Source: Nitrospirales bacterium (lineage in GTDB: Bacteria; Nitrospirota; Nitrospiria; Nitrospirales; UBA8639). Taken from it: a stretch of 16,734 bases of DNA. Position numbers and translations under genes: made by a program. Below the pieces are notes generated by a model, which did not search any database, was not told the DNA's origin, and worked only from the letters and a program-made list of their open reading frames with translations. The stretch spans positions 1-16,734 of the forward strand of contig JACDDF010000007.1 of assembly GCA_013817135.1 (NCBI GenBank), in the 5' to 3' direction. Shown piece after piece: positions 3,736 through 16,467 of the stretch. How positions within the stretch are numbered: position 1 is the first letter of the stretch; every line of letters begins with the position of its first letter.

Positions 3736-4291
3736 ATGAATGACGGTCTGTTCCAAAAAATTCTGATACCCGTCGATTTTGCTCCCTCCTCACGAGAATC
3801 GTTCCTGGTTGGACTTCGCCTCGCCAGAAATTTTCAATCACAGGTTATTCTCCTTCATGTCATCGACACCAAATCCCTGGATGCCCTGAACGCTCTCGGG
3901 CTCGCGCTCCCTTCGGAGGAGAAAGCCCAAAAAAAAACGATTACACCACCAGGCCCGCCTTCTCGCACGGGGCCTCCTAGCGTTGCCTGAAGCCTAGGGG
4001 TTAAAAATTACGCGTGTACTCAGCGAAGGGAAACCCTTTATGGAAATTGCCCGTATGACACGAACGGAACAAGTCGACCTTGTCGTCATGGGCAGTTATG
4101 GTGGGCAAACGGGAGATATTACCAGAATCTTTTTTGGGAGTACGGCCGAAAAAGTCGTTCGCACAGTAGCTTGTCCAGTGCTATGCGTTCCCCATCCTTA
4201 CCCTAAAATACAATCCGTTACGGATGATGATGCGATCCCCAAACCTGTTAAGTCAAAAACAAAGAGAACGCGTCGCAACCCATCTTCTTGA
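3736..4291 (+). pseudogene. Broken universal stress protein gene (frameshift plus nonsense codon)
   Basis: The first part encodes a normal Usp start (KILIPVDFAPSSRESF, then VILLHVIDTKSLDAL) and runs into a different frame after a nine-A run at 3929-3937, ending at about 3990. Reading with one A fewer restores a plausible Usp helix (HHQARLLARGLLALPEA), which meets an in-frame TAG at 3995-3997 and then continues as ITRVLSEGKPFMEIARMT through the Usp ATP loop (VMGSYGG to FFGSTAEKVV) to the stop at 4291. Two independent lesions make this a pseudogene, originally one Usp domain of about 185 residues with a basic tail. The ATP loop is about two residues longer than the usual G-x2-G-x9-GS. A sequencing error in the A-run could explain the frameshift but not the TAG. 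Confidence 0.85.
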
Positions 4292-5057: not shown

Positions 5058-6751
<1,694 letters not shown>

Positions 6752-6788: not shown

Positions 6789-7190
6789 ATGCAACCGGCG
6801 CTCATGACCTTGAAAATTCTTCTGCCGTTCAGGATCTTCGCCGAGCACGCGGTGACGCGTATCGTCGCAGAGACCCGTGAGGGCGCGTTTGGCATTTTGC
6901 CTCAACGGCTTGACTGCGTGGCAGCACTCGAGCCGGGAATTCTGATCTACCAAAGAAAAGGGGAAGAAGAGATGTACGTGGCACTCGATGAAGGGGTGCT
7001 GGTCAAAAGCGGCCCCAACGTTCTGGTCTCCGTGCGCAACGCCATTGCCGGAACCGACCTCCACCAATTGCGCGATGCCGTGGAACGTGAATTTCTGACT
7101 CTGGACGAACACGAGCAAAGCCTCCGCTCGGTGATGGCCAAGCTTGAAAGTAGCTTTGTGCGCCGCTTCGCGGATTTTCGCCATGACTGA
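6789..7190 (+). CDS. atpC: N-ATPase F1 subunit epsilon
   Basis: This 133-residue protein has the epsilon beta-sandwich (LKILLPFRIFAEHAVTRIVA, then GAFGILPQRLDCVAAL, then the YVALDEGVLVKSG strand) and a short C-terminal helical part rich in charge. It belongs to the central stalk with gamma and normally modulates hydrolysis. The start at 6789 is 37 nt after atpD, with a weak GGAA upstream; a second ATG at 6804 (MTLKILLPF) is possible. The frame remains open upstream, inside the atpD tail, but no better start is seen there. It overlaps atpQ by 8 nt. Placement directly after beta fits the N-ATPase order. Confidence 0.93.
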   Translation: MQPALMTLKILLPFRIFAEHAVTRIVAETREGAFGILPQRLDCVAALEPGILIYQRKGEEEMYVALDEGVLVKSGPNVLVSVRNAIAGTDLHQLRDAVEREFLTLDEHEQSLRSVMAKLESSFVRRFADFRHD

Positions 7191-7521
7191 GGACCCGGAA
7201 GAGAAGCCTCTCAGGGAAGAGACGACCTTAGCCCGACAGGTCGGCACGAAGGCTGCGCGCAAACTCAAGGCGCAACGTCACACGACGCGGACCATCTGGT
7301 TTGGGTTGGGGATGATGGGGCTGATCGGTTGGTCTGTGGCGATTCCAACGCTACTTGGTGCGTCGCTCGGTCTCTGGCTGGACAAACATTATCCCGGACC
7401 GCATTCATGGACGCTCACCCTGCTCTTCATCGGCCTGATCATCGGATGCGTGAATGCGTGGCATTGGGTGACCAGGGAAGACCAGGAAATACGAGCGGAA
7501 CAGGAGAATCACGATGAATGA
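7183..7521 (+). CDS. atpQ: N-ATPase accessory membrane protein AtpQ (AtpI-like)
   Basis: This small membrane protein of 112 residues has a basic, charged N-terminus (1-36), a first transmembrane hairpin segment with GWSVAIPTLLGASLGLWLD (about 48-66), and a second helix (about 75-94) followed by an acidic tail. The P-x-L-x-G-x3-G-x-WLD pattern is the AtpI/AtpQ signature; related proteins assist c-ring assembly, and magnesium transport has been suggested. It overlaps atpC by 8 nt at the start and atpR by 8 nt at the end, so the three are probably translationally coupled. Identification rests on this motif plus the operon position. Confidence 0.88.
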   Translation: MTEDPEEKPLREETTLARQVGTKAARKLKAQRHTTRTIWFGLGMMGLIGWSVAIPTLLGASLGLWLDKHYPGPHSWTLTLLFIGLIIGCVNAWHWVTREDQEIRAEQENHDE

Positions 7522-7825
7522 AATTTTGAGTCTGATGCCGGCGCTGGTTGCAGGCGTATTGCTCGGCGCGATGTTCTTCGGGGGCCTGTGGTGGACAGTC
7601 CTGAAAGGCATGGCATCCACACGGCCGGCCCTATGGTTCTTCGGTAGCCTGCTGCTACGAACGAGCACGACCATGGCTGGATTCTATATAATCTCGGACG
7701 GCCATTGGGAGAAGCTCCTGATCTGCCTCTTGGGATTCACGGTAGCGCGTCCCATCGTGACGCGACTCACACGCTCAAATGAAAAACCAACCCGCCTGGC
7801 AGAGGAGACCGGCCATGCGCCTTAG
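7514..7825 (+). CDS. atpR: N-ATPase accessory membrane protein AtpR
   Basis: This 103-residue protein has three predicted transmembrane helices (about 7-30, 39-60, 67-85) and a short polar tail. Two arginines lie in or at the edge of hydrophobic segments: R49 in LLLRTSTTM and R79 in FTVARPIV. In the literature on N-ATPases such AtpR arginines are proposed to face the c-subunit carboxylate during ring assembly or as an ion barrier. AGGAG lies 7 nt before the ATG. It overlaps atpQ by 8 nt and atpB by 11 nt. AtpR is specific to N-ATPase operons, which makes it one of the best markers for the class. Confidence 0.88.
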   Translation: MNEILSLMPALVAGVLLGAMFFGGLWWTVLKGMASTRPALWFFGSLLLRTSTTMAGFYIISDGHWEKLLICLLGFTVARPIVTRLTRSNEKPTRLAEETGHAP

Positions 7826-8513
7826 CCCGGACGACATCATTTTCTGGCAATACGGGTTCATCAAACTGAATGCCACAATTGTGTTCACGTGGGCAGTGAT
7901 GCTCGTGCTGGCCGTCGGATCGACAGTCATTACACGCCACCTGTCCACGGGGTTGAAACGTTCCCGCTGGCAGAATCTTCTGGAAATCGTCGTGACCGCC
8001 ATCCAGGGACAAATTGAAGAGGTCGGCCTGAGTCAGCCGCACAAGTATCTCAGCTTTCTGGGGACAATCTTTCTGTTCGTCGCCACAGCCAGCCTCTGTA
8101 CGATCATTCCCGGTTACGAGCCGCCGACAGGTTCCCTCTCAACCACGGTGGCACTCGCGTTGTGCGTGTTTGTCGCCGTACCGCTCTTCGGCATCGAGGA
8201 GCAAGGAGTCGGCGGGTATCTCAAGTCCTACCTGAAACCGACTGTCATCATGCTGCCGTTTAACATTATCAGCGAACTCTCCCGCACCTTGGCCCTGGCC
8301 GTCCGCCTGTTCGGCAACATGATGAGCGGAGCCATGATTGTCGGGATTCTGCTGACCATCACGCCCTTCATCTTCCCGATCGTCATGAGTCTGCTCGGTC
8401 TGCTCACCGGTATGGTGCAGGCCTATATCTTCAGTATCCTGGCCACGGTCTACATTGCGGCGGCAATACGAACACGTCAACGTGAACCTCAACCCGAACC
8501 TGGAGGGAAATAG
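7815..8513 (+). CDS. atpB: N-ATPase Fo subunit a
   Basis: The 232-residue stator channel subunit has five or six hydrophobic helices. The essential arginine of the a/c interface is R164 in ALAVRLFGNMMSG, and the last helix carries Q202 in GMVQAYIFSILATVYI. The N-terminus is shorter than in E. coli subunit a. The ATG at 7815 is chosen because GAGGAG lies 7 nt upstream; the open frame begins slightly earlier, within atpR. It overlaps atpR by 11 nt and is followed after 40 nt by atpE. Ion flow between cytoplasm and periplasm passes along this subunit. Confidence 0.95.
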   Translation: MRLSPDDIIFWQYGFIKLNATIVFTWAVMLVLAVGSTVITRHLSTGLKRSRWQNLLEIVVTAIQGQIEEVGLSQPHKYLSFLGTIFLFVATASLCTIIPGYEPPTGSLSTTVALALCVFVAVPLFGIEEQGVGGYLKSYLKPTVIMLPFNIISELSRTLALAVRLFGNMMSGAMIVGILLTITPFIFPIVMSLLGLLTGMVQAYIFSILATVYIAAAIRTRQREPQPEPGGK

Positions 8514-8553
8514 TGACACACAGGCCACAACAATTAAAGGCAAAGGAGACTCT

Positions 8554-8835
8554 ATGGACAGCATGACTCTCATCGCGGTGGCATCAATTGTCACGGCCGG
8601 CTTCACCACGGGCATCGGCTGCCTTGGGCCGGCGCTGGGGGAAGGAAGAGCGGTTTCAACGGCGCTGACTTCGCTGGCCCAGCAACCCGATGCCTCAAAC
8701 ACGATAACCCGAACGCTGTTTGTGGGCCTGGCGATGATCGAGTCCACCGCCATTTACTGTTTCGTGGTCTCGATGATTCTGGTCTTCGCCAACCCGTTCT
8801 GGAACCACGTCCTCGCCCAGGCCACAGGAAAATGA
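8554..8835 (+). CDS. atpE: N-ATPase Fo subunit c (rotor ring)
   Basis: This 93-residue helical hairpin is somewhat longer than typical c subunits because of a C-terminal extension after NPFW. The polar loop is AQQPDA (42-47). The ion-carrying carboxylate is E63 in AMIESTAIY. S64, T65 and Y68 match the E-S-T-x-x-Y pattern of Na+-type rings such as Ilyobacter. At the position of the Ilyobacter Q32 ligand there is a second glutamate, E30, in LGEGRA. Two carboxylates per subunit are typical of N-ATPases, and ion choice cannot be read safely from sequence. AAAGGAG lies before the ATG at 8554; earlier in-frame codons fall in the atpB end and are rejected. Confidence 0.95.
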   Translation: MDSMTLIAVASIVTAGFTTGIGCLGPALGEGRAVSTALTSLAQQPDASNTITRTLFVGLAMIESTAIYCFVVSMILVFANPFWNHVLAQATGK

Positions 8836-8839
8836 AACG

Positions 8840-9649
8840 ATGCTAATCGACTGGTTCACCGTTGCTGCGCAGGCACTCAACTTTCTCATCCTCGTATGGT
8901 TATTAAAGCGGTTCCTGTACAAACCCATCCTCAATGCTCTTGACGCGAGGGAGAAACGGATCGCCGCTGAACTCGCAGACGCCGATGCGAAAAAAGCCGA
9001 AGCCCGACAGGAACGCGACGAGTTCCAGCGTAAAAACGAGGAGATTGACCAGCAGCGGGCTGCACTGCTGACGAAGTCCGAGGAGGACGCCACAGTCGAG
9101 CGTCAGCGGCTCCTCAACGAGGCGCGGAAGGAGTCGGACGACTTGCGCACCAAGTGGCAAGAGGCGTTGAGAAGCGAACACCAGAGCTTGAGTGAAGAAC
9201 TCACCCGTCGAACACGAGAGGAAGTCTTTGCCATCGCCCGAAAAACATTGGCGGACCTCGCCACAACGAACCTGGAAGAACAGATGACCGACGCCTTCAT
9301 CCGCCGATTGCACAAACTGGATAGTGCGGAGAGAGGGGAGCTAGAGTCGGCCTTCAAGGCCGCGTCCACTCCCGCAATCGTACGCAGCACGTTCGATCTT
9401 CCTTCGGCCCAGCGTAGCGCGATTGAAGGTGTCGTCAAGGACGTACTCGCCATTGAGACCCACGTTCAATTCGAAACCGCCCCGGACCTGGTCAGCGGCA
9501 TCGAACTTTCTGCCAATGGGCATAAGGTGGCCTGGAGCATCGGAAATTATCTCGCGTCGCTTCAAAAACACGTCGATGACCTCCTGAACGTGCCTCCAAA
9601 AGCGGCAACCAAAGCCATAGCACCTCCCGAACAACAGGCCAATGGATAA
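8840..9649 (+). CDS. atpF: N-ATPase stator subunit b with delta-like C-terminus
   Basis: The 269-residue protein is much longer than a standard b subunit (about 156). One N-terminal membrane helix (about 8-26, [19 protein letters not shown]) is followed by a long, highly charged coiled coil (about 40-150). The C-terminal third (about 165-250), with [15 protein letters not shown], the strand [15 protein letters not shown] and [15 protein letters not shown], resembles the end of subunit delta. No separate atpH is present in the operon, so this fusion probably supplies both the peripheral stalk and the cap on alpha. It starts 4 nt after atpE and overlaps atpA by 8 nt. A short polar, alanine/proline-rich tail ends the protein. 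Confidence 0.93.
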
Positions 9650-11195
9650 CCCATTCGAAAACCTGCACAGTCTTTTCGACAACACGTTCACCGGCATGAG
9701 CCACGCACGCGAAAGCTTCACACCCGGCATGGCGGCCCACGAGATAGGGAGAATCACGAACGTCTCCACCGGTATCGCCAGGGTTTCCGGTCTTCCCCGC
9801 GTGGGGTTTGAGGAGGTATTGAAGTTTCCCGCTGCTGTGTATGGCATCGCCTTCAACGTCGATGAGGACGAAATCGGCGTCGTGCTTCTTGGGGACTACT
9901 GGCAGTTGCATGCGGGTGATGAGGTCGAACGCAGGGGACACGTTATGGACGTGCCGGTATGCGACGAATTAATCGGGCGAGTCATCAACCCATTGGGACG
10001 GCCTCTGGATGGCCTCGGGCCTGTGGTTTCTACCGAGCGCCTGCCTATCGAACGTCCGGCCCCGCCCATCATGAATCGTGCCCCCGTCACGGTGCCGTTG
10101 CAAACCGGCATCAAGGTCATCGATGCACTTATTCCCATTGGGCGAGGCCAGCGTGAGTTGATTCTCGGCGACCGGCAAACAGGCAAGACCGCCATCGCCC
10201 TCGACACCATTCTCAACCAGCGGGATCAGAATGTGCTGTGCGTGTATTGCGCCATCGGCCAACGCGCATCCGGTGTGGCCAAAGTGGTGGCCACCCTCCG
10301 AGAACAAGGCGCGATGGAATACACCATCGTCGTCGTCACCGAAGGCAACGACCCGCCTGGACTCGCCTATATCGCGCCGTACGCCGCGACCAGCATTGCC
10401 GAGCATTTCATGGAACAGGGTCGCGATGTGCTGATTGTCTATGACGACCTGACACATCACGCCCGCGCCTATCGTGAGCTGTCCTTGCTCCTGCGCCGCC
10501 CGCCCGGTCGAGAAGCGTTTCCCGGCGACATCTTTTACATTCACTCGCGGCTTCTGGAGCGCGCCACCCATCTGCGAAAAGAATTCGGTGGTGGCTCATT
10601 GACGGCGCTGCCCATCATTGAAACCGAAGCACAAAACATTTCGGCCTACATTCCGACCAACCTGATTTCCATCACGGATGGACAAATCTATCTCTCGCCC
10701 TCCCTGTTCGAATTAGGGGTGCTGCCTGCAATCGATGTCGGTCGATCCGTTTCCCGCGTGGGGGGCAAGGCCCAACGGGCGGCCTATCGCGCCGTGGCGG
10801 GAGACCTCAAGTTGGCCTATGCCCAGTTTGAAGAGCTGGAAACCTTCGCCAGGTTCGGCGCCCGGCTGGATGACGACACCCGCACTATTATCGAACACGG
10901 GCGAAGAATCCGCGCCTGTCTCAAGCAGCCGGAATTCGCACCGGTGTCGGTTCCCGCTCAAATTGCCTTGCTACTGGCGTTGTCCGAAAAACTGTTCGAC
11001 CCTGTGCCCATTGACCAGATGACGAAGGCCGAACAGGCCTTGCACAAGGCGGCCCTGGACATCCCGTTGGAAGTGCGCAAGCGATTGGAAGGCCCAGCCA
11101 AATTGAATGCCGAAGATCGTGAAACGATTATTCGGATCGCCCGTCACACACTGGAATGCTTTCAGCTCACACCGGAACTCAAGGAACAGTCATGA
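9642..11195 (+). CDS. atpA: N-ATPase F1 subunit alpha
   Basis: The 517-residue non-catalytic nucleotide-binding subunit has Walker A GDRQTGKT at 176-183, the [20 protein letters not shown] segment before it, and the arginine finger R372 in [15 protein letters not shown]. The N-terminal region (1-30) would contact the delta-like cap of AtpF. Its last seven codons (PELKEQS then TGA) overlap the start of a truncated atpG by ATGA at 11192-11195. The same end segment reappears, diverged, at the end of the HPF gene (12933-12954). All catalytic-interface motifs look intact. Confidence 0.97.
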
Positions 11196-11284
11196 GCGAC
11201 ACCATGGTGAGTCTCCGCCGAAAGATCGACGGAGCCGGGGATCTCCAATCCGTCGTTCGCACGATGAAGATTTTGGCTGCTTCA
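11174..11284 (+). repeat. Left copy of the atpA 3'/atpG 5' junction duplication
   Basis: This aligns without gaps to 12933-13043 (offset 1759). The 93 nt from the atpG ATG onward are roughly 87 percent identical by eye (about 12 differences, many silent), and the last 18 nt of atpA match less well. Similarity stops abruptly after the AAS codons of atpG. In this copy the atpA end is functional and the atpG part is a stub. Confidence 0.85.
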
Positions 11285-11380
11285 ATGGACGAAAAGCCCA
11301 TTTATGCGAGCGATAAATCGCATGGTTCAGCCATTTCGTTAAGGTATAATTTAACCCTTAAAGAACATGAACAAGAATAG
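11192..11380 (+). pseudogene. Truncated atpG stub left by the insertion
   Basis: This 62-codon frame starts with the same 31-residue N-terminus as the real gamma subunit (SLRRKIDGAGDLQSVVRTMK) and then changes after LAAS to an unrelated tail (MDEKPIYASDKSHGS...). It lacks the rest of gamma and cannot form the rotor shaft alone. It overlaps atpA by ATGA, as a functional atpG would, so it is probably still translated. Its TAG stop at 11378-11380 lies within the AGGAGG ribosome site of the baeRF gene, which would favour re-initiation there. It is most likely a remnant, though a short regulatory peptide is conceivable. Confidence 0.8.
11339..11361 (+). promoter_or_regulatory. TTAAGG-N11-CCTTAA inverted repeat with a TATAAT box
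   Basis: Six-base arms at 11339-11344 and 11356-11361 enclose TATAATTTAAC, which contains a perfect -10 hexamer at 11345-11350. No good -35 hexamer is seen 16-18 nt upstream. It could be an activator- or repressor-controlled internal promoter for the baeRF-HPF cassette, or simply an AT-rich insertion scar. Confidence 0.3.
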
Positions 11381-11389
11381 GAGGCAGGA

Positions 11390-12553
11390 ATGACACAGAA
11401 GAGGACTTTACTCACGAGCGACCTAATAGCCGAGTTGGTATCGGATCATCAGCCGCCATGCCTCTCGCTTTACCAGCCGACCCATCGGCGCCATCCCGAG
11501 AATCAGCAGGACCCGATCCGGTTTCGTAATCTTGTCAAGGAGCTGGAGACATCGCTCCGGCAAAAGTATCCGGCCGTCGAAACCCGCCTCCTTCTGGAAC
11601 CGTTCGAAGCTCTCGCACACGATCATGACTTCTGGACCCACACACACGATGGACTGGCCGTGCTGGCCGCGCAAGGCTTGTTTCATGTGTTCCGGCTTCA
11701 GCGCCCGGTCGCCGAATTGGCCGTCGTGGCCGACAGCTTTCACACCAAGCCATTGCGGCGTTTTCTCCAATCGGTCGATCGCTACCAGGTCCTCGGGCTG
11801 AGCCTCCAGAAGATCCGGCTCTTCGAGGGAAACCGCGACGCGCTTGACGAGATCGATCTTGTTCCGGGGGTTCCGCGGACGATCACTGAGGCGCTGGGCG
11901 ATGAGCTGACCGATCCCCATTCAACCGTCGCTTCGTATGGCGGCGTCGGCGGAGCGAGCGCACCCATGCACCACGGCCACGGCGGGAAAAATGCCGAGAT
12001 AGACATCGACGCGGACCGGTTTTTCCGCGCTGTCGACCGCGCGGTGTTGGAGCACTATTCCCGACCATCGGGCCTGCCGCTGATCCTCGCGGCGTTGCCG
12101 GAGCACCATCATCGTTTTCACAACATCAGCCACAATCAGTTTTTGATGGCGGAGGGACTCACAATCAATCCGGATGCCCTGGCGATCGATGAACTTCCGA
12201 AACGCATCTGGGAAGTCATCGAACCACAGTATCAGGCACGGCTGGCTAAACTGGCCGACGAGTACGCAGTGGCGAAGTCCCATGAGCTTGGCAGCGACGA
12301 CCTGACGCAGGTTGCACAGGCCGCCGCCGCCGGGCGGGTCGCCACCCTGCTGATCGAGGCCAACCGTCAGATTGCGGGCCGTCTGGACTGTGCGACGGGT
12401 GAGGTCAAACTTGCGGACCTGAGCCACCCGCAAGTCGATGACCTCCTCGACGATCTTGGCGAACTCGTCGAAAAGATGGGCGGCCGTGTTCTGATCATTC
12501 CGGCCGAACGCATGCCGGGGCGGACAGGACTGGCTGCCACATACCGGCATTAA
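11390..12553 (+). CDS. baeRF-type protein (bacterial release-factor-like, eRF1/Pelota-related)
   Basis: This 387-residue soluble protein has the layout of bacterial archaeo-eukaryotic release factor homologues: an N-terminal alpha/beta domain starting with CLSLYQPTHRRHPE, a middle domain ending in a glycine/histidine-rich loop (GGVGG...HGHGG, about 174-189) before DADRFFRAVDRAVLEHY (198-214), and a C-terminal domain with GRVATLLIEANRQIAGRLD (about 315-333) and GGRVLIIPAERMP. Known relatives are predicted to act on ribosomes in rescue or quality control, but biochemical proof is scarce. AGGAGG precedes the ATG, and 29 nt separate it from the HPF gene. It lies inside the atp operon between an atpG stub and atpG. 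The subfamily (baeRF family 3?) is a guess from memory. Confidence 0.75.
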   Translation: MTQKRTLLTSDLIAELVSDHQPPCLSLYQPTHRRHPENQQDPIRFRNLVKELETSLRQKYPAVETRLLLEPFEALAHDHDFWTHTHDGLAVLAAQGLFHVFRLQRPVAELAVVADSFHTKPLRRFLQSVDRYQVLGLSLQKIRLFEGNRDALDEIDLVPGVPRTITEALGDELTDPHSTVASYGGVGGASAPMHHGHGGKNAEIDIDADRFFRAVDRAVLEHYSRPSGLPLILAALPEHHHRFHNISHNQFLMAEGLTINPDALAIDELPKRIWEVIEPQYQARLAKLADEYAVAKSHELGSDDLTQVAQAAAAGRVATLLIEANRQIAGRLDCATGEVKLADLSHPQVDDLLDDLGELVEKMGGRVLIIPAERMPGRTGLAATYRH

Positions 12554-12582
12554 ACCAAATCATACGCACGAAGGAGAATACC

Positions 12583-12954
12583 ATGCAGATCCAAATCAAC
12601 ACCGACCGTAATATCGAAGGCCACGAGGCCTTGGCCACTCAGGTCAGTGACGTCGTGGAGAGTGCCTTGAGCCGATTCAGCGATCACATCACGCGAGTGG
12701 AGGTCCACCTGAGCGATGAAAACAGCGCCAAAAAGGGCGGCAATGACGACATACGGTGCGTGATGGAAGCCCGCCTTGAAGGCCGCCAGCCCTCCGCGGT
12801 CACACACCAGGCCGCAACCGTGGACCAAGCCGTAGACGGCGCTGCAGAGAAATTGACCAGAATGATCGAGAGCACCCTCGGACAACTGCGCGATCAACAG
12901 AGGCGCAGGACTGACCCGCCTCCGCCAGGGCAGGAACTTCCGGAAGAGTCATGA
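12583..12954 (+). CDS. HPF/RaiA-type ribosome hibernation factor
   Basis: The 123-residue protein has a single S30AE-like domain (about 1-105): MQIQINTDRNIEG, RFSDHITRVEVHLSDEN, CVMEARLEGRQPSAVTH and VDQAVDGAAEKLTRMIEST. Such proteins bind the 30S decoding region and silence ribosomes in stress. The C-terminal extension of long HPF that dimerises ribosomes is absent; the short tail is proline-rich. AAGGAG lies 6 nt before the start codon. The last codons (QELPEES) align in frame with the atpA end (PELKEQS), and the TGA overlaps atpG as ATGA, so the gene probably acquired its 3' end from the duplicated atpA. It is likely co-transcribed and coupled with atpG. Confidence 0.88.
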   Translation: MQIQINTDRNIEGHEALATQVSDVVESALSRFSDHITRVEVHLSDENSAKKGGNDDIRCVMEARLEGRQPSAVTHQAATVDQAVDGAAEKLTRMIESTLGQLRDQQRRRTDPPPPGQELPEES

Positions 12955-13043
12955 GCGACACCATAGTGGGTCTTCGCCGAAAGATCGGCGGAGCCGGGGA
13001 TCTCCAATCCGTAGTTCGCACAATGAAGGCCTTGGCCGCCTCG
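12933..13043 (+). repeat. Right copy of the atpA 3'/atpG 5' junction duplication
   Basis: This is the diverged partner of 11174-11284. Here the atpA-like part forms the last codons of the HPF gene and the atpG part is the intact gene start. Both copies keep the TCATGAGCGACACCAT junction, including the ATGA stop/start overlap. Confidence 0.85.
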
Positions 13044-13835
13044 AGCATTGGACAATATGAGCAATCGGTGAGCGCATTGGCCGACTATGCTCGCACGGTG
13101 GAGCTGGGATTAAGCGTCTGTTTCCGGAAAGACCCGCCGGTGGGCTTGATGGGAGAACAGAAGAAAAAAACACATTCAGGCACGATTGGCGCAGTCGTGT
13201 TCGGTTCAGACCAGGGACTGGTAGGCCAGTTTAATGAGGTGGTAGCCGATTATGCGGTCAAGACCTTGGCCGCTCGACCTGGTCACCACAGTGTATGGGC
13301 CGTCGGTGAGCGCGTGCAAACGCGCCTGGCAGACGCAGGTCTGCCGTTGCTAGGATTCTTTTCCGTTCCGAATTCCGTCAAGGCCATTACTCCGCTTGTC
13401 GTACAGATTCTCCTGGAAAGCGAAGCAGCTCATAGCCAGGGAAAGATCTACGAACTCCACCTCTTTTACAACCGCCCCACGTCCAGAGCGGTCTATGCGC
13501 CGGTCAATCAGCGCCTACTGCCGCTGGACGAAACCTGGCGAAGCGACTTGGCGATACTCCCGTGGCCGACGGGAAATCTGCCGGAGGTCATCGGCAGTGG
13601 TGCGACGCTGCGGGCGCTCATTCATGAGTATCTCTTTATCTCGCTTTTCCGGGCCTGCGCCGAATCTCTGGCCAGTGAAAACGCCAGCCGGCTAACCGCC
13701 ATGCAACGCGCCGAGAAAAACATCGACGAGCTGCTGGAGGACCTCAATCGGCATTTCCACCAGTTGCGCCAACGTGGTATCGACGAGGAGCTGTTTGACG
13801 TCATCTCCGGCTTTGAGGCGCTGGCCAAAGAATGA
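12951..13835 (+). CDS. atpG: N-ATPase F1 subunit gamma
   Basis: The 294-residue central rotor shaft has an N-terminal coiled-coil helix (SLRRKI-type start, VGLRRKIGGAGDLQSVVRTM), a central alpha/beta domain with the characteristic FGSDQGLVGQFNE (about 84-96), and a C-terminal helix with ASRLTAMQRAEKNIDELLEDL, the usual gamma end. This is the only complete gamma gene in the window. Its ATG overlaps the HPF stop (ATGA), whereas in N-ATPase operons atpG normally follows atpA directly. Gamma output may thus depend on translation of the hibernation factor. The 3' end ([18 protein letters not shown]) is repeated in damaged form at 14275-14340. Confidence 0.95.
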   Translation: MSDTIVGLRRKIGGAGDLQSVVRTMKALAASSIGQYEQSVSALADYARTVELGLSVCFRKDPPVGLMGEQKKKTHSGTIGAVVFGSDQGLVGQFNEVVADYAVKTLAARPGHHSVWAVGERVQTRLADAGLPLLGFFSVPNSVKAITPLVVQILLESEAAHSQGKIYELHLFYNRPTSRAVYAPVNQRLLPLDETWRSDLAILPWPTGNLPEVIGSGATLRALIHEYLFISLFRACAESLASENASRLTAMQRAEKNIDELLEDLNRHFHQLRQRGIDEELFDVISGFEALAKE

Positions 13836-13921
13836 AACAGCTCTAATCTCCACCATAAGGGAATCACCCTACGAATCATAAAGGAAGAACACCGATGAAC
13901 ATTTAGACCAAAGGCTTTTCC
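13769..13921 (+). repeat. Left copy of the atpG 3'/ppk2 5' junction duplication
   Basis: This aligns with 14275-14426 (offset 506, then 505), covering the last codons of atpG, a 58-59 nt spacer containing AAGGAAGAAC, and the first codons of ppk2. The coding parts match closely and the spacer is more diverged. In this copy the atpG end is functional and the ppk2 start is broken. Confidence 0.85.
13895..13921 (+). pseudogene. Broken duplicate of the ppk2 start
   Basis: ATG-AAC-ATT-TAG-ACC-AAA matches the true ppk2 start (ATG-AAC-ATT-CAG-ACC-AAA at 14400) except that the fourth codon is now a TAG stop. The ribosome site is retained (AAGGAAG). Homology ends near 13921, after about nine codons, so only a scar remains. 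Confidence 0.8.
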
Positions 13922-14274
13922 ATGTGGCAAAGGAACCACACAGAATATATGGCTACTTGCCCTTTCGTGTGAATCCCAGAAAGGTTCATCGCCCATGGTC
14001 CGACGCCTGCCGTCTGGCCCAAGGGAAGGACGCTCTCATCCGCTGGCGGGCCTTGTTTGAGCCCTTCGCCAAAACTCAGGGCAGGCTCCGCGAGTTGGTC
14101 CGCCCTCCGCAGACTGGCGTCCGTTCCCTCTAATGAGGCCAGACTGGGCGTCAATGGTTTTGGGGCCTTTTGCCGGAACAAAAAGCCTGTCCTGAGCCCT
14201 GCCGAAGGAGGCCTCGCCTGCCGGGGCGAAACCCGGCAACACAGAATATCACTTGGACACGAGAGGTGGGGACA
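13922..14274. mobile_element. Insert of about 350 bp between the duplicated atpG/ppk2 junctions
   Basis: There is no credible protein gene here. Short frames exist on both strands but none has a ribosome site or a recognisable product. The segment carries inverted REP-like arms (14059-14088 and 14183-14212) and the direct repeat ACACAGAATAT at 13938-13948 and 14239-14249, which may mark a nested insertion. It looks like a non-autonomous repeat element (REP doublet or MITE-like); the transposing partner is not in the window. Confidence 0.5.
14059..14212. repeat. Pair of inverted REP-like arms
   Basis: The 30-nt arm at 14059-14088, read on the minus strand (GAGCCTGCCCTGAG then GGCGAAGGG), resembles the arm at 14183-14212 on the plus strand (AAGCCTGTCCTGAG then GCCGAAGG). 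About 95 bp separate them, containing CAGACTGGCGTCC and CAGACTGGGCGTCA as direct repeats. The CCTGAG...CGAAGG core is a common dispersed intergenic palindrome in many bacteria. Confidence 0.6.
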
Positions 14275-14426
14275 CCAACGTGGCATCGACGAGGAATACT
14301 TTGACGTCATTTCCGGCTTTGAAGCGCTGGCCAAAAAATCCAACGCCTCGAAACGCCATGCAGGTGAACCACCCATCGACCTATGAAGGAAGAACAACCA
14401 TGAACATTCAGACCAAAGGTTTCCGC
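14275..14426 (+). repeat. Right copy of the atpG 3'/ppk2 5' junction duplication, with an atpG remnant
   Basis: This is the partner of 13769-13921. It starts with an atpG 3' remnant ([19 protein letters not shown]) that has lost the original stop and reads on to TGA at about 14386, then gives the intact ppk2 ribosome site and start. The remnant has no upstream gene body in frame, so it is a pseudogene fragment. Confidence 0.85.
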
Positions 14427-15269
14427 ATAGATGAAGGCACAACGGTCGATCTCAGCAAAAGGCCAACCAGGGTAAAGGATATCTATAACTCGAAAAAACA
14501 GTACAAGCAGGTTCTCAAGAAACATATTGAAGAACTCAAGGACTTACAACGTCTCCACTACGCCTACAATCGCTATGCATTGCTGCTGATATTCCAGGCC
14601 ATGGACGCCGCAGGCAAGGACGGCGCCATCCGACACGTCATGTCGGGAATTAATCCACAAGGTTGCCAGGTGTTCAGCTTCAAACATCCCAGCGCTGAGG
14701 AACTGGACCATGATTTTCTGTGGCGCACCACGCAGTCTCTGCCTGAACGCGGACGCATCGGCATTTTCAATCGTTCCTATTACGAAGAAGTCCTGATCGT
14801 TCGCGTGCATCCGGAGATTCTGCTGAGCCAGGGGCTGCCGGACGAATTACTTGATGAAAAGTCCCTTTGGCAAGATCGGTACCGCTCAATCGTGGACCTG
14901 GAGAGCCATCTCTACCGCAATGGCACACGAATCATAAAGTTTTTCCTTCACCTTTCGGAGGAAGAGCAGCGAAAACGCTTCCTTCAACGCATTGATGAAC
15001 CGGAAAAGAACTGGAAATTCAGCCTGGCCGACATTAAGGAGCGAAAGTATTGGAAAGAGTATATGCAGGCCTATGAGGCCTGTTTGGGTGCGACAAGCAC
15101 AGAGACCGCTCCCTGGTATGTTGTGCCTGCCGATGATAAAAATAACGCCAGGCTCATCATTTCAAATGTAATTGTGGAAACATTAAAGAGTCTCAACATG
15201 AGTTACCCCACCACGACCAAGGAGCGACAGAAAGAATTGCAGTCAATCCGTAAACGCCTGACGAAATAA
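14400..15269 (+). CDS. ppk2: Polyphosphate kinase 2 (PPK2 family)
   Basis: The 289-residue cytosolic kinase moves phosphate between polyphosphate and nucleotides. Walker A is [10 protein letters not shown] at 66-75, the Walker B-like motif is FNRSYYEE at 123-130, and the lid contains [16 protein letters not shown] at about 161-176. It is a single-domain enzyme of normal length; whether it prefers ADP, GDP or AMP cannot be told from sequence by eye. The ATG at 14400 is chosen over upstream in-frame codons because AAGGAAG lies about 8 nt before it and its duplicate at 13895 starts at the same codon. Being just downstream of the ATPase and HPF genes suggests nucleotide-energy buffering during stress. 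Confidence 0.95.
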
Positions 15270-15300
15270 GACCAGAAGGTCGAAAGGAGAGGGGCAGAGC

Positions 15301-15378
15301 ATGAGTATTCCGCAGACGTTTTCCCTGAGCAAACAATTTTTGAAAAGTCAGGTTATGGTAGTGAGCGCCTGCGCCTGA
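15301..15378 (+). CDS. Small leader ORF coupled to the VIT-type transporter
   Basis: A strong ribosome site (AAAGGAGAGG, about 8 nt away) precedes ATG at 15301. The frame encodes 25 residues, starts MSIPQTFSLSKQFLK, and ends in TGA at 15376-15378, whose last base begins the transporter ATG (TGATG). The transporter has no ribosome site of its own. This argues for translational coupling through a leader peptide. The peptide resembles nothing recognised and could alternatively be the remnant of a lost gene. Confidence 0.5.
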   Translation: MSIPQTFSLSKQFLKSQVMVVSACA

Positions 15379-16067
15379 TGGAAACTAGACACATGCGTAT
15401 AAGACATAGGGAACGTCACCGAACGGAACGCATCGGATGGCTCCGAGCAGCGGTCTTGGGCGCCAACGACGGGATCGTATCGACAGCCAGCCTGCTACTC
15501 GGTGTCTCGTCGGCAAATGCCACTCACAGCGATGTCTTGATCGCGGGAGCCATGTCGATGGCTGCCGGTGAGTATGTGTCTGTCCAATCACAGGCAGATA
15601 CCGAAGAGGCCGACCTTGCCCTTGAACACATGGAACTCCTATCGGACCCGTCAGGTGAGCACAAGGAACTCGCCGCTCTTTATGTTGGGCGAGGCCTCGA
15701 TCCAGCAATTGCGAAGCAGGTCGCCACGCAACTCATGGCCCATGATGCTATTGGAGCGCATGCCCGTGACGAACTCGGTATTTCCGAAAACCTCAGTGCC
15801 CGTCCGATTCAGGCGGCAATGGCGTCGGCCGGAAGCTTCGCTGTCGGAGCCGCCCTGCCTCTTGTGACCGCGACCATCATCCCGGAGGCCAGCCTGGTTC
15901 CCGTGGTTTCTGGAACCTCACTGGTGTTTCTCGCGGGATTAGGAGGGTTAGCAGCACAGGCGGGCGGTGCGTCGGTGATGAGGGGCGCCATGCGCGTCAC
16001 ATTATGGAGTGCACTGGCCATGGGACTGACCGCAGAGGTTGGAACACTCTTCGGTGCAGCGAGGTGA
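15378..16067 (+). CDS. VIT1/CCC1-family iron/manganese transporter
   Basis: This 229-residue membrane protein has a basic cytosolic N-terminus (1-20), the family hallmark GANDGIVSTASLLLGV (28-43) on the first helix, a second helix ending in MAAGEYVSVQSQADTEEADL (61-80), a charged cytosolic helical insert (about 80-140) and three C-terminal helices (about 145-229). The family moves Fe2+ or Mn2+ out of the cytosol, usually by H+ exchange. The glutamates in the TEEAD/EHMEL region correspond to the metal-binding insert. Translation probably depends on the upstream leader ORF. It is the last plus-strand gene before the repeat region; a metal CDF begins beyond. Confidence 0.92.
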   Translation: METRHMRIRHRERHRTERIGWLRAAVLGANDGIVSTASLLLGVSSANATHSDVLIAGAMSMAAGEYVSVQSQADTEEADLALEHMELLSDPSGEHKELAALYVGRGLDPAIAKQVATQLMAHDAIGAHARDELGISENLSARPIQAAMASAGSFAVGAALPLVTATIIPEASLVPVVSGTSLVFLAGLGGLAAQAGGASVMRGAMRVTLWSALAMGLTAEVGTLFGAAR

Positions 16068-16467
16068 AAGGGACAATGAGTCAATCGCAATACCTGTTCT
16101 TTCAGCTCAACGCGCCCAATGAAATTTGTCATATGGGTGAGGGGAGCTTTTCAGAAGCGTCATTCTCACGAGAACGGGAATTCGTTTGAATCTTGATTCG
16201 GATGGATCCCCGCTTACTACCGGCGGGGATGACGGAAAAGCGATGCAAGGAGGACGCTGTCCGACCTGTTGACATGAAAAAAATTTGTCATTCCCGACGT
16301 TTTTTATCGGGAATCCATCTTGGTTGTGTTTTGGATAGATCTCGGGTGCCGACCAATTTCCATGAGGCTGTTCTGCCAATATCTGGACACTATGCGATCG
16401 ATGACATCCACGTTTTCACAGGGACGAAAAATCCCACTTTCCCGGTCATGACCTTATTACACCAAAC
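16068..16467. repeat. Intergenic region with REP-like palindromes
   Basis: About 400 bp without a supported gene. Stems are 16206-16213/16223-16230 (ATCCCCGC/GCGGGGAT, inside CGGATGGATCC...GGATGACGG) and 16290-16297/16307-16314 (ATTCCCGA/TCGGGAAT), with a degenerate one near 16161-16182. The first is the reverse complement of the arrangement at 47-88. A 37-residue frame at 16076-16189 has no ribosome site and is not called. The region after 16320, which should contain the promoter of the next gene, shows no clear promoter. Confidence 0.7.

Follow-up and report, generated by a model that had tools for sequence, protein, structure and literature searches.

The stretch analysed here, called the window, is 16,734 nucleotides (nt) of DNA from a Nitrospirales bacterium (contig JACDDF010000007.1). 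It carries an N-ATPase operon whose genes run on the + strand in the order atpD, C, Q, R, B, E, F, A, baeRF, HPF, atpG, with two genes standing between those for the alpha and gamma subunits. A first-pass annotation, made from the letters alone, had described these two genes as a ribosome hibernation/rescue cassette inserted in the operon and flanked by gap-free direct repeats of the atpA-end/atpG-start junction. The observation is confirmed and its interpretation is partly supported: both genes match their families, and the operon was indeed left readable, atpA and atpG both being intact. The features around the junction are as follows.

9642..11195, + strand: atpA (alpha), intact, its stop overlapping the ATG of the atpG stub (PF00006, E 1.7e-82)
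11174..11283, + strand: left junction repeat, the atpA end plus the first ~32 codons of atpG as a stub, 86% identical to 12933-13042
11285..11389, + strand: leader upstream of baeRF, common to the related genomes G002 and G013 (67/102 and 69/102 positions)
11390..12553, + strand: baeRF family 3 / Balon-type gene (PF18845, E 5.8e-51; Balon chain 8rd8_B, E 3e-15; fold 8rdw_B, E 1e-20)
12583..12954, + strand: short HPF/RaiA-type gene, its stop overlapping the atpG ATG by 4 nt (PF02482, E 2.6e-9; 7m4z_v, E 8e-21)
12933..13042, + strand: right junction repeat, the HPF end plus the start of intact atpG, 86% identical to 11174-11283
12951..13835, + strand: atpG (gamma), intact (PF00231, E 9.6e-54)

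The two repeats form a direct pair of 110 nt without gaps, at a spacing of 1759. Because only ~20 nt of the repeat lie upstream of the ATG, and these encode the tails of AtpA and HPF, the homology is essentially that of the first 96 nt of atpG. The stub of ~32 codons in the left copy is probably dead. An in-frame ATG at codon 5 is kept in the window, G002 and G013, but the first ATG is lost in G013 and stub lengths differ, leaving a functional peptide unsupported. A small hairpin lies at the joint of stub and cassette (window 11278-11300), reading AAGTGAC-AAAAA-GTCACTT in G002 and G013 (L127, L128); its window version seems, by eye and over three sequences, to carry two compensatory changes and one mismatch. 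No Rfam RNA matched 11150-14450 up to E 1.

Comparison within the genus places the cassette among both occupied and empty sites. When 117 genomes from the order, the window's own included, were searched, G002 and G013 proved to have a short atpG fragment upstream of a full atpG, with a baeRF gene between them that is 88% (G002) and 86% (G013) identical to that of the window. Both genomes agree with the window in gene order, in the truncated atpG start and in the left breakpoint, the stub ending at an identical point in all three; in G013 the arrangement lies on a contig of 1.78 Mb. Five other genus members (G003, G004, G011 with two operons, G016 and G018) have an uninterrupted junction; relative to these sister operons the cassette is an insertion. 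In these empty sites the atpA stop overlaps the atpG start (distances were taken for all but G018, whose context was seen instead). Both slots are empty at the two N-ATPase operon ends of G011 (L136, L137), and in G010 (L142 1242-1791) the operon has collapsed, leaving the atpG tail directly against an atpD fragment.

For the history of the cassette within the genus, we give slightly less than even odds to a single entry at the base of the genus followed by loss in the sisters, a history compatible with the functional reading below. In the sisters the stub and the atpG start would have recombined with each other, removing the cassette and restoring the atpA/atpG overlap. In keeping with this, three species share one breakpoint, the window operon is nested among empty ones and not beside G002 and G013 on a tree of alpha and gamma, and the proportion of synonymous differences (pS) over three pairs is 0.17-0.42 for the cassette, inside the span of 0.14-0.46 seen for the operon genes. 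Two points speak against it. Between the window and G002, pS is 0.28 (0.23-0.34) for baeRF versus 0.39 (0.33-0.45) for atpA, and the baeRF value is close to the 0.26 that atpA gives between the window and G003; the window lineage may thus also have received the cassette later, by homologous transfer. In addition, no excision scar was seen in the empty sites. As for the entry itself, one homologous and one illegitimate end, or integration of a circle, fits the structure: the block would have come by recombination anchored in the atpG start, with the stub and the 110-nt repeats as its scar. Over the first 93 nt, the right atpG starts are 90-94% like that of G003 and the left copies 86-90%, a comparison too short to decide between recombination routes.

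The stub and the leader differ in how well they have been kept. Between the window and G002 or G013 the stub is alike at 81/96 and 77/96 positions, a higher share than in the leader; between G002 and G013 the two are equally alike (85/96 and 92/103). The greater likeness of the stub in the window comparisons could reflect gene conversion with atpG or weak constraint. The last ~60-80 nt of the leader resemble those of two loci, L055 and L057, by eye only, and blastn of the window against these two matched just over the start of the baeRF gene.

The same slot is filled well outside the genus. A search of genome contigs confirmed 422 atpG relatives, of which the best 80 by likeness to the window atpG were kept (two of the loci, L047 and L048, being identical). 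The first-pass annotation had proposed looking for baeRF and HPF between atpA and atpG in other genomes; among the 74 of these loci where the end of atpA and the start of atpG could both be read, 14 hold HPF and/or baeRF in the slot, a share among the best 80 of 422 loci and no population frequency. Both genes are present in five (L049, which is G002, and L055, L057, L107 and L111), baeRF alone in L102, and HPF alone in L058, L059 (with a 34-residue baeRF remnant), L067, L068, L070, L098, L105 and L112. This census, with 13 of the 14 occupied slots outside the window genus, rejects the idea of a private insertion. The repeats, on the other hand, are a scar of this genus: in 19 loci tested, the atpG-start repeat was present only in L049, the 13 other occupied slots and five further gapped loci giving only chance matches of 10-11 nt. 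By record title the occupied slots fall in at least six phyla, with the caveat that titles of metagenome-assembled genomes (MAGs) can be wrong; the taxa named are Nitrospirota, a 'Deltaproteobacteria' MAG, Acidobacteria, several Pseudomonadota, Verrucomicrobia, KSB1 and Pirellulales. The slot state changes at least 12 times on a quickly built tree of alpha and gamma with 74 rows (which differ from the 74 census loci, and in which an HPF relic from Haliea was labelled occupied and two relocated cassettes empty), so gain and loss are frequent.

Examination of the baeRF product indicates what kind of factor it may be. Residues 21-383 align with Balon chain 8rd8_B, which carries the label chemotaxis protein in the sequence file, and the homology runs along all three domains. 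An AlphaFold model built from 43 sequences has a predicted local distance difference test score (pLDDT) of 81.4 and a predicted template-modelling score of 0.76; over five models pLDDT ranged from 51 to 81, with residues 178-199 poor. The five top folds in the PDB for this model are all Balon structures, among them 8rdw_B with a template-modelling score of 0.59; identity is ~22%, and the root-mean-square deviation is high (~8-9 Å), which makes the modelled arrangement of the domains tentative. In the N-terminal stretch an HP pair aligns with an HP in 8rd8_B and is a candidate counterpart of the Balon motif that contacts the decoding centre. The translation, read by eye, contains neither a GGQ nor a NIKS motif. 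The gene is therefore better called a Balon-type hibernation factor, on sequence and predicted fold, than a rescue factor. The close baeRF subtype is rare in Nitrospirota (5/295 genomes at E 1e-60, one of them 57% identical). Carriage of the close cassette subtype on plasmids is unsupported, the 6 HPF and 16 baeRF plasmid records all being below 60% identity.

The HPF product has 123 residues, with an S30AE domain (PF02482, 38.1 bits against a cut-off of 23.7) that ends at residue 98 and no further Pfam family, the dimerisation domain at the C terminus of long HPF included; it is thus the short form. Its best PDB relative is chain v of 7m4z, 'Ribosomal subunit interface protein' (101 residues), the 70S-bound HPF of Acinetobacter baumannii. 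Each of 14 genomes searched with PF02482 has at least two matches, so the slot HPF is an extra copy. When a slot-HPF profile was run over 30 HPF loci from these 14 genomes, both strands being read, six slot HPFs scored 211-228 bits, an off-slot copy in G090 scored 143.8 and the other 23 loci scored at most 44.7; these scores are partly circular, since slot HPFs helped build the profile. A derivation of the HPF tail from the AtpA tail, hinted at by G013, was dropped because many HPFs in general end in a P(E)E(S) tail. Both cassette genes evolve under purifying selection within the genus: the ratio of nonsynonymous to synonymous change (dN/dS) among the three cassette-bearing members is 0.19-0.20 for baeRF and 0.10-0.21 for HPF.

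In the slot, HPF stands in alpha's place as the gene whose stop overlaps the gamma start. The distance from HPF stop to atpG start is −4 nt in 11 of 15 loci, −1 in three and +2 in one, the 15 comprising 12 loci outside the genus plus the window, G002 and G013; this overlap in 14/15 loci is the strongest sign of linkage. The spacing between baeRF and HPF is 26-33 nt. In L102, L107 and L111 baeRF opens with an ATG that shares 4 nt with the end of atpA, stop codon included. For these three loci and L059, the distances from atpA to the first gene were not used in the spacing count. A pattern scan found no terminator-like site on the + strand in 8164-16100 and no sigma-70-like promoter in 11196-11390, between atpA and baeRF.

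We read the locus as a variant N-ATPase operon whose two extra genes between alpha and gamma, one of Balon type and one for a short HPF/RaiA, would share an mRNA with the pump as a starvation package; we put the probability of this at roughly 0.6. The gene order recurs in bacteria of other phyla, and such an arrangement in unrelated lineages suggests that ion pumping and translation shutdown are switched on together. HPF occupies the mRNA channel of the ribosome. In the proposed scheme, a single polycistronic mRNA induced by energy or salt stress would encode the pump and both hibernation factors, so that an ATP-driven Na+ exporter is made together with two ribosome-parking proteins, the Balon-type protein acting in the ribosomal A site, where Balon binds with EF-Tu(GDP). 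Translation of HPF would feed re-initiation on gamma, keeping pump completion and HPF output in step, and the cell would hold its ion gradient while saving the large nucleoside triphosphate (NTP) cost of translation; the PPK2 polyphosphate kinase encoded downstream could replenish NTPs from polyphosphate. N-ATPases are believed to spend ATP on ion pumping (sources include PMC11738941 or PMC4154653), and their cellular functions are described as largely unexplored (PMC5376962). The recurrent tie to hibernation factors, and sometimes to PPK2, leads us to the hypothesis that the N-ATPase belongs to a survival programme that holds the ion gradient during translation sleep; the linkage also gives Balon-type factors a possible physiological partner.

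Several observations weigh against this reading. The HPF/atpG overlap may be no more than an inheritance: in 52/60 operons lacking an HPF or baeRF match, atpA shares 4 nt with atpG. Slot operons and the others do not differ in the duplex energy of the gamma Shine-Dalgarno (15 versus 60, Mann-Whitney p 0.34; repeat copies and L078, L088, L102, L103, L115, L130, L131 and L143 were left out); a weaker gamma Shine-Dalgarno in slot operons, hinted at by a word count (6/15 versus 59/77, the 77 including repeat copies of some genomes), was thereby not confirmed. The baeRF gene has its own leader and a strong Shine-Dalgarno (−9.5), which would allow separate expression, and the promoter and terminator counts of the pattern scan are not above those of shuffled sequence. 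The Na+ motif of the window c subunit is common to slot and non-slot operons. An unrelated gene for a DUF2254 membrane protein fills the slot in L088 and L115, so the slot may be a permissive site. Finally, cassettes stand outside the slot in G071, where the cassette precedes atpD and has behind it a remnant that resembles an atpG start (by eye), and in G090, where it lies ~168 kb from the intact gamma and is followed by atpG codons 154-237; both look as if they once stood before an atpG.

The last two observations, together with the many changes of slot state on the alpha+gamma tree, favour an alternative in which the alpha/gamma junction tolerates insertions that keep the overlap, and hibernation genes land there laterally with no tie to the pump. 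We regard such hitch-hiking as rather unlikely: the same HPF subfamily recurs, HPF being present in 13 of the 14 occupied slots, and both cassette genes are under purifying selection in the genus. Of the two DUF2254 genes, the one in L115 (2992-4362) has a 4-nt overlap of its stop with the start of atpG, and the one in L088 (5098-5982) ends 18 nt before atpG, the atpA there lacking a middle part.

To return to the starvation package, the overlaps, a relic in Haliea that keeps one, and the atpG remnants behind the cassettes of G071 and G090 support, without proving, a translational coupling from HPF to gamma. A stronger form of this idea, which we consider unlikely, makes HPF the translational coupler of the rotor: most gamma would be translated by ribosomes coming straight from HPF, and completion of the Na+ pump would be metered by, and feed back on, hibernation. 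Haliea sp. E1-2-M8 (L078 5906-6004) retains a 32-residue HPF relic with an HPF-like start and a 4-nt overlap with atpG, most of the gene being gone; if the stronger form were true, this relic, with start and overlap only, would be a coupler without the protein.

Quite unlikely is the view that the insertion itself made the long direct repeats, through target duplication by a mobile element or template switching. The window does contain a second junction duplication, which may have arisen in this way: the atpG end/PPK2 start junction is present at 13769-13917 and 14275-14422 (149-nt repeats, 79% overall) round an element at 13918-14274, a dispersed repeat that has 42 matches in the window's genome and, in six relatives, 51-67 per genome. 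Two further copies of the element have flanking repeats of ~100 nt, L196 (776-878/1227-1333), whose flanks match nothing at the other fetched loci, and L195 (879-977/1192-1289), ~35 nt of whose flanks recur elsewhere. Against this view, these are only 2 of 80 further loci, and in the three other bracketing cases (L188, L208 and L227) the repeats recur at other loci, as do those of L195 in part. Bracketing repeats occur at 5/80 loci versus 0/188 control windows (which overlap by half and were drawn from 14 loci), but with recurrence in three of the five and partly in L195, the idea of long target duplications as a constant product of the dispersed element was not supported. Neither gene of the baeRF-HPF block is a transposase, and in a search confined to 18 window open reading frames none matched a transposase in Pfam. 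No inverted pair of at least 20 nt, the shortest length searched, bounds the insert, in comparison with direct repeats of 110 nt. An assembly or binning artefact fusing unrelated contigs, a concern raised in the first-pass annotation and conceivable in a MAG of 645 contigs, is rejected as practically excluded unless G002 and G013 (7 contigs) have the same error, because these two genomes share the structure and the left breakpoint, which also speaks against chance.

The remaining genes of the operon, and the gene downstream, are the following.

5216..6751, + strand: atpD (beta), first gene of the N-ATPase operon (PF00006, E 6.2e-74)
6801..7190, + strand: atpC (epsilon), start set by hand, assigned by homologues at the same place in those relatives that reach so far and not by family search
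7144..7521, + strand: atpQ (PF09527, E 4.5e-17)
7514..7825, + strand: atpR, the N-ATPase hallmark (PF12966, E 7.4e-32)
7779..8513, + strand: atpB (a subunit), assigned by homologues in relatives (56-92%) and not by family search
8455..8835, + strand: atpE (c subunit) (PF00137, E 1.5e-16), given from the first TTG, the true start probably lying further in
8840..9649, + strand: atpF (b subunit) (PF00430, E 2.2e-13)
14400..15269, + strand: PPK2 polyphosphate kinase, downstream (PF03976, E 3.9e-67), start reset to 14400

AtpR and AtpQ between epsilon and a identify the operon as an N-ATPase, and its genes follow the order beta-epsilon-Q-R-a-c-b-alpha-gamma in one cluster save for the alpha/gamma insert. 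N-ATPases have no separate delta gene, delta being absent or fused to b; here AtpF has 269 residues and PF00430 as its sole Pfam match, and the overlap of atpF with atpA leaves no space for a delta gene between them. The c subunit carries MIESTAIY and a second Glu (GEG), a motif read as Na+ type. All 72 c subunits in the tally have a second motif of the Na+ kind, and Na+ versus H+ specificity was dropped as a discriminator of slot operons; the location of the first Glu was missed in 3/13 slot rows and 19/59 other rows. Downstream of atpG lie PPK2 and then a VIT-family gene; PPK2 is found in 22/80 N-ATPase loci, 66-92% identical to that of the window, and some loci end just after atpG. Elsewhere in the window, a universal stress protein gene seems split, with reading frames 3736-3990 and 4040-4291 matching the N- and C-terminal parts of PF00582, and direct repeats of 99 nt (88%) at 2-233 have inverted counterparts at 16175-16354, perhaps a dispersed repeat.

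Parts of this arrangement resemble systems already described. Genes for baeRF adjoining HPF are a published association (PMC6514570), and the window has exactly that pairing; the N-ATPase setting differs, 'ATP synthase' having no occurrence in the main text of that paper. Balon has been reported in stress operons that include RaiA (PMC10901736). The window baeRF is like Balon in sequence, in its five best folds, in an aligned HP pair and in lacking GGQ and NIKS, and is unlike it in sitting inside an N-ATPase operon, the word 'ATPase' being absent from that main text. Among the papers listed in literature searches, those on N-ATPase with polyphosphate kinase included, we found no report of baeRF-HPF inside N-ATPase operons, though an earlier mention may exist. 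The HPF resembles 7m4z_v as a short single-domain protein and differs in its C-terminal tail and its overlap with atpG. As in homology-facilitated illegitimate recombination (PMC3240628), one homologous and one illegitimate end would leave a stub and a repeat like those of the window, the donor molecule being hypothetical here. N-ATPase operons have the order beta-epsilon-X-X-a-c-b-alpha-gamma (PMC11738941, PMC4154653), and about half of N-ATPases (914/1807, from a source among these two) have the Na+-binding c-subunit motif, which is given in PMC12342949. The window shares with the known operon its gene order, AtpQ, AtpR and a putatively Na+-type c subunit, and departs from it in that two added genes part alpha from gamma.

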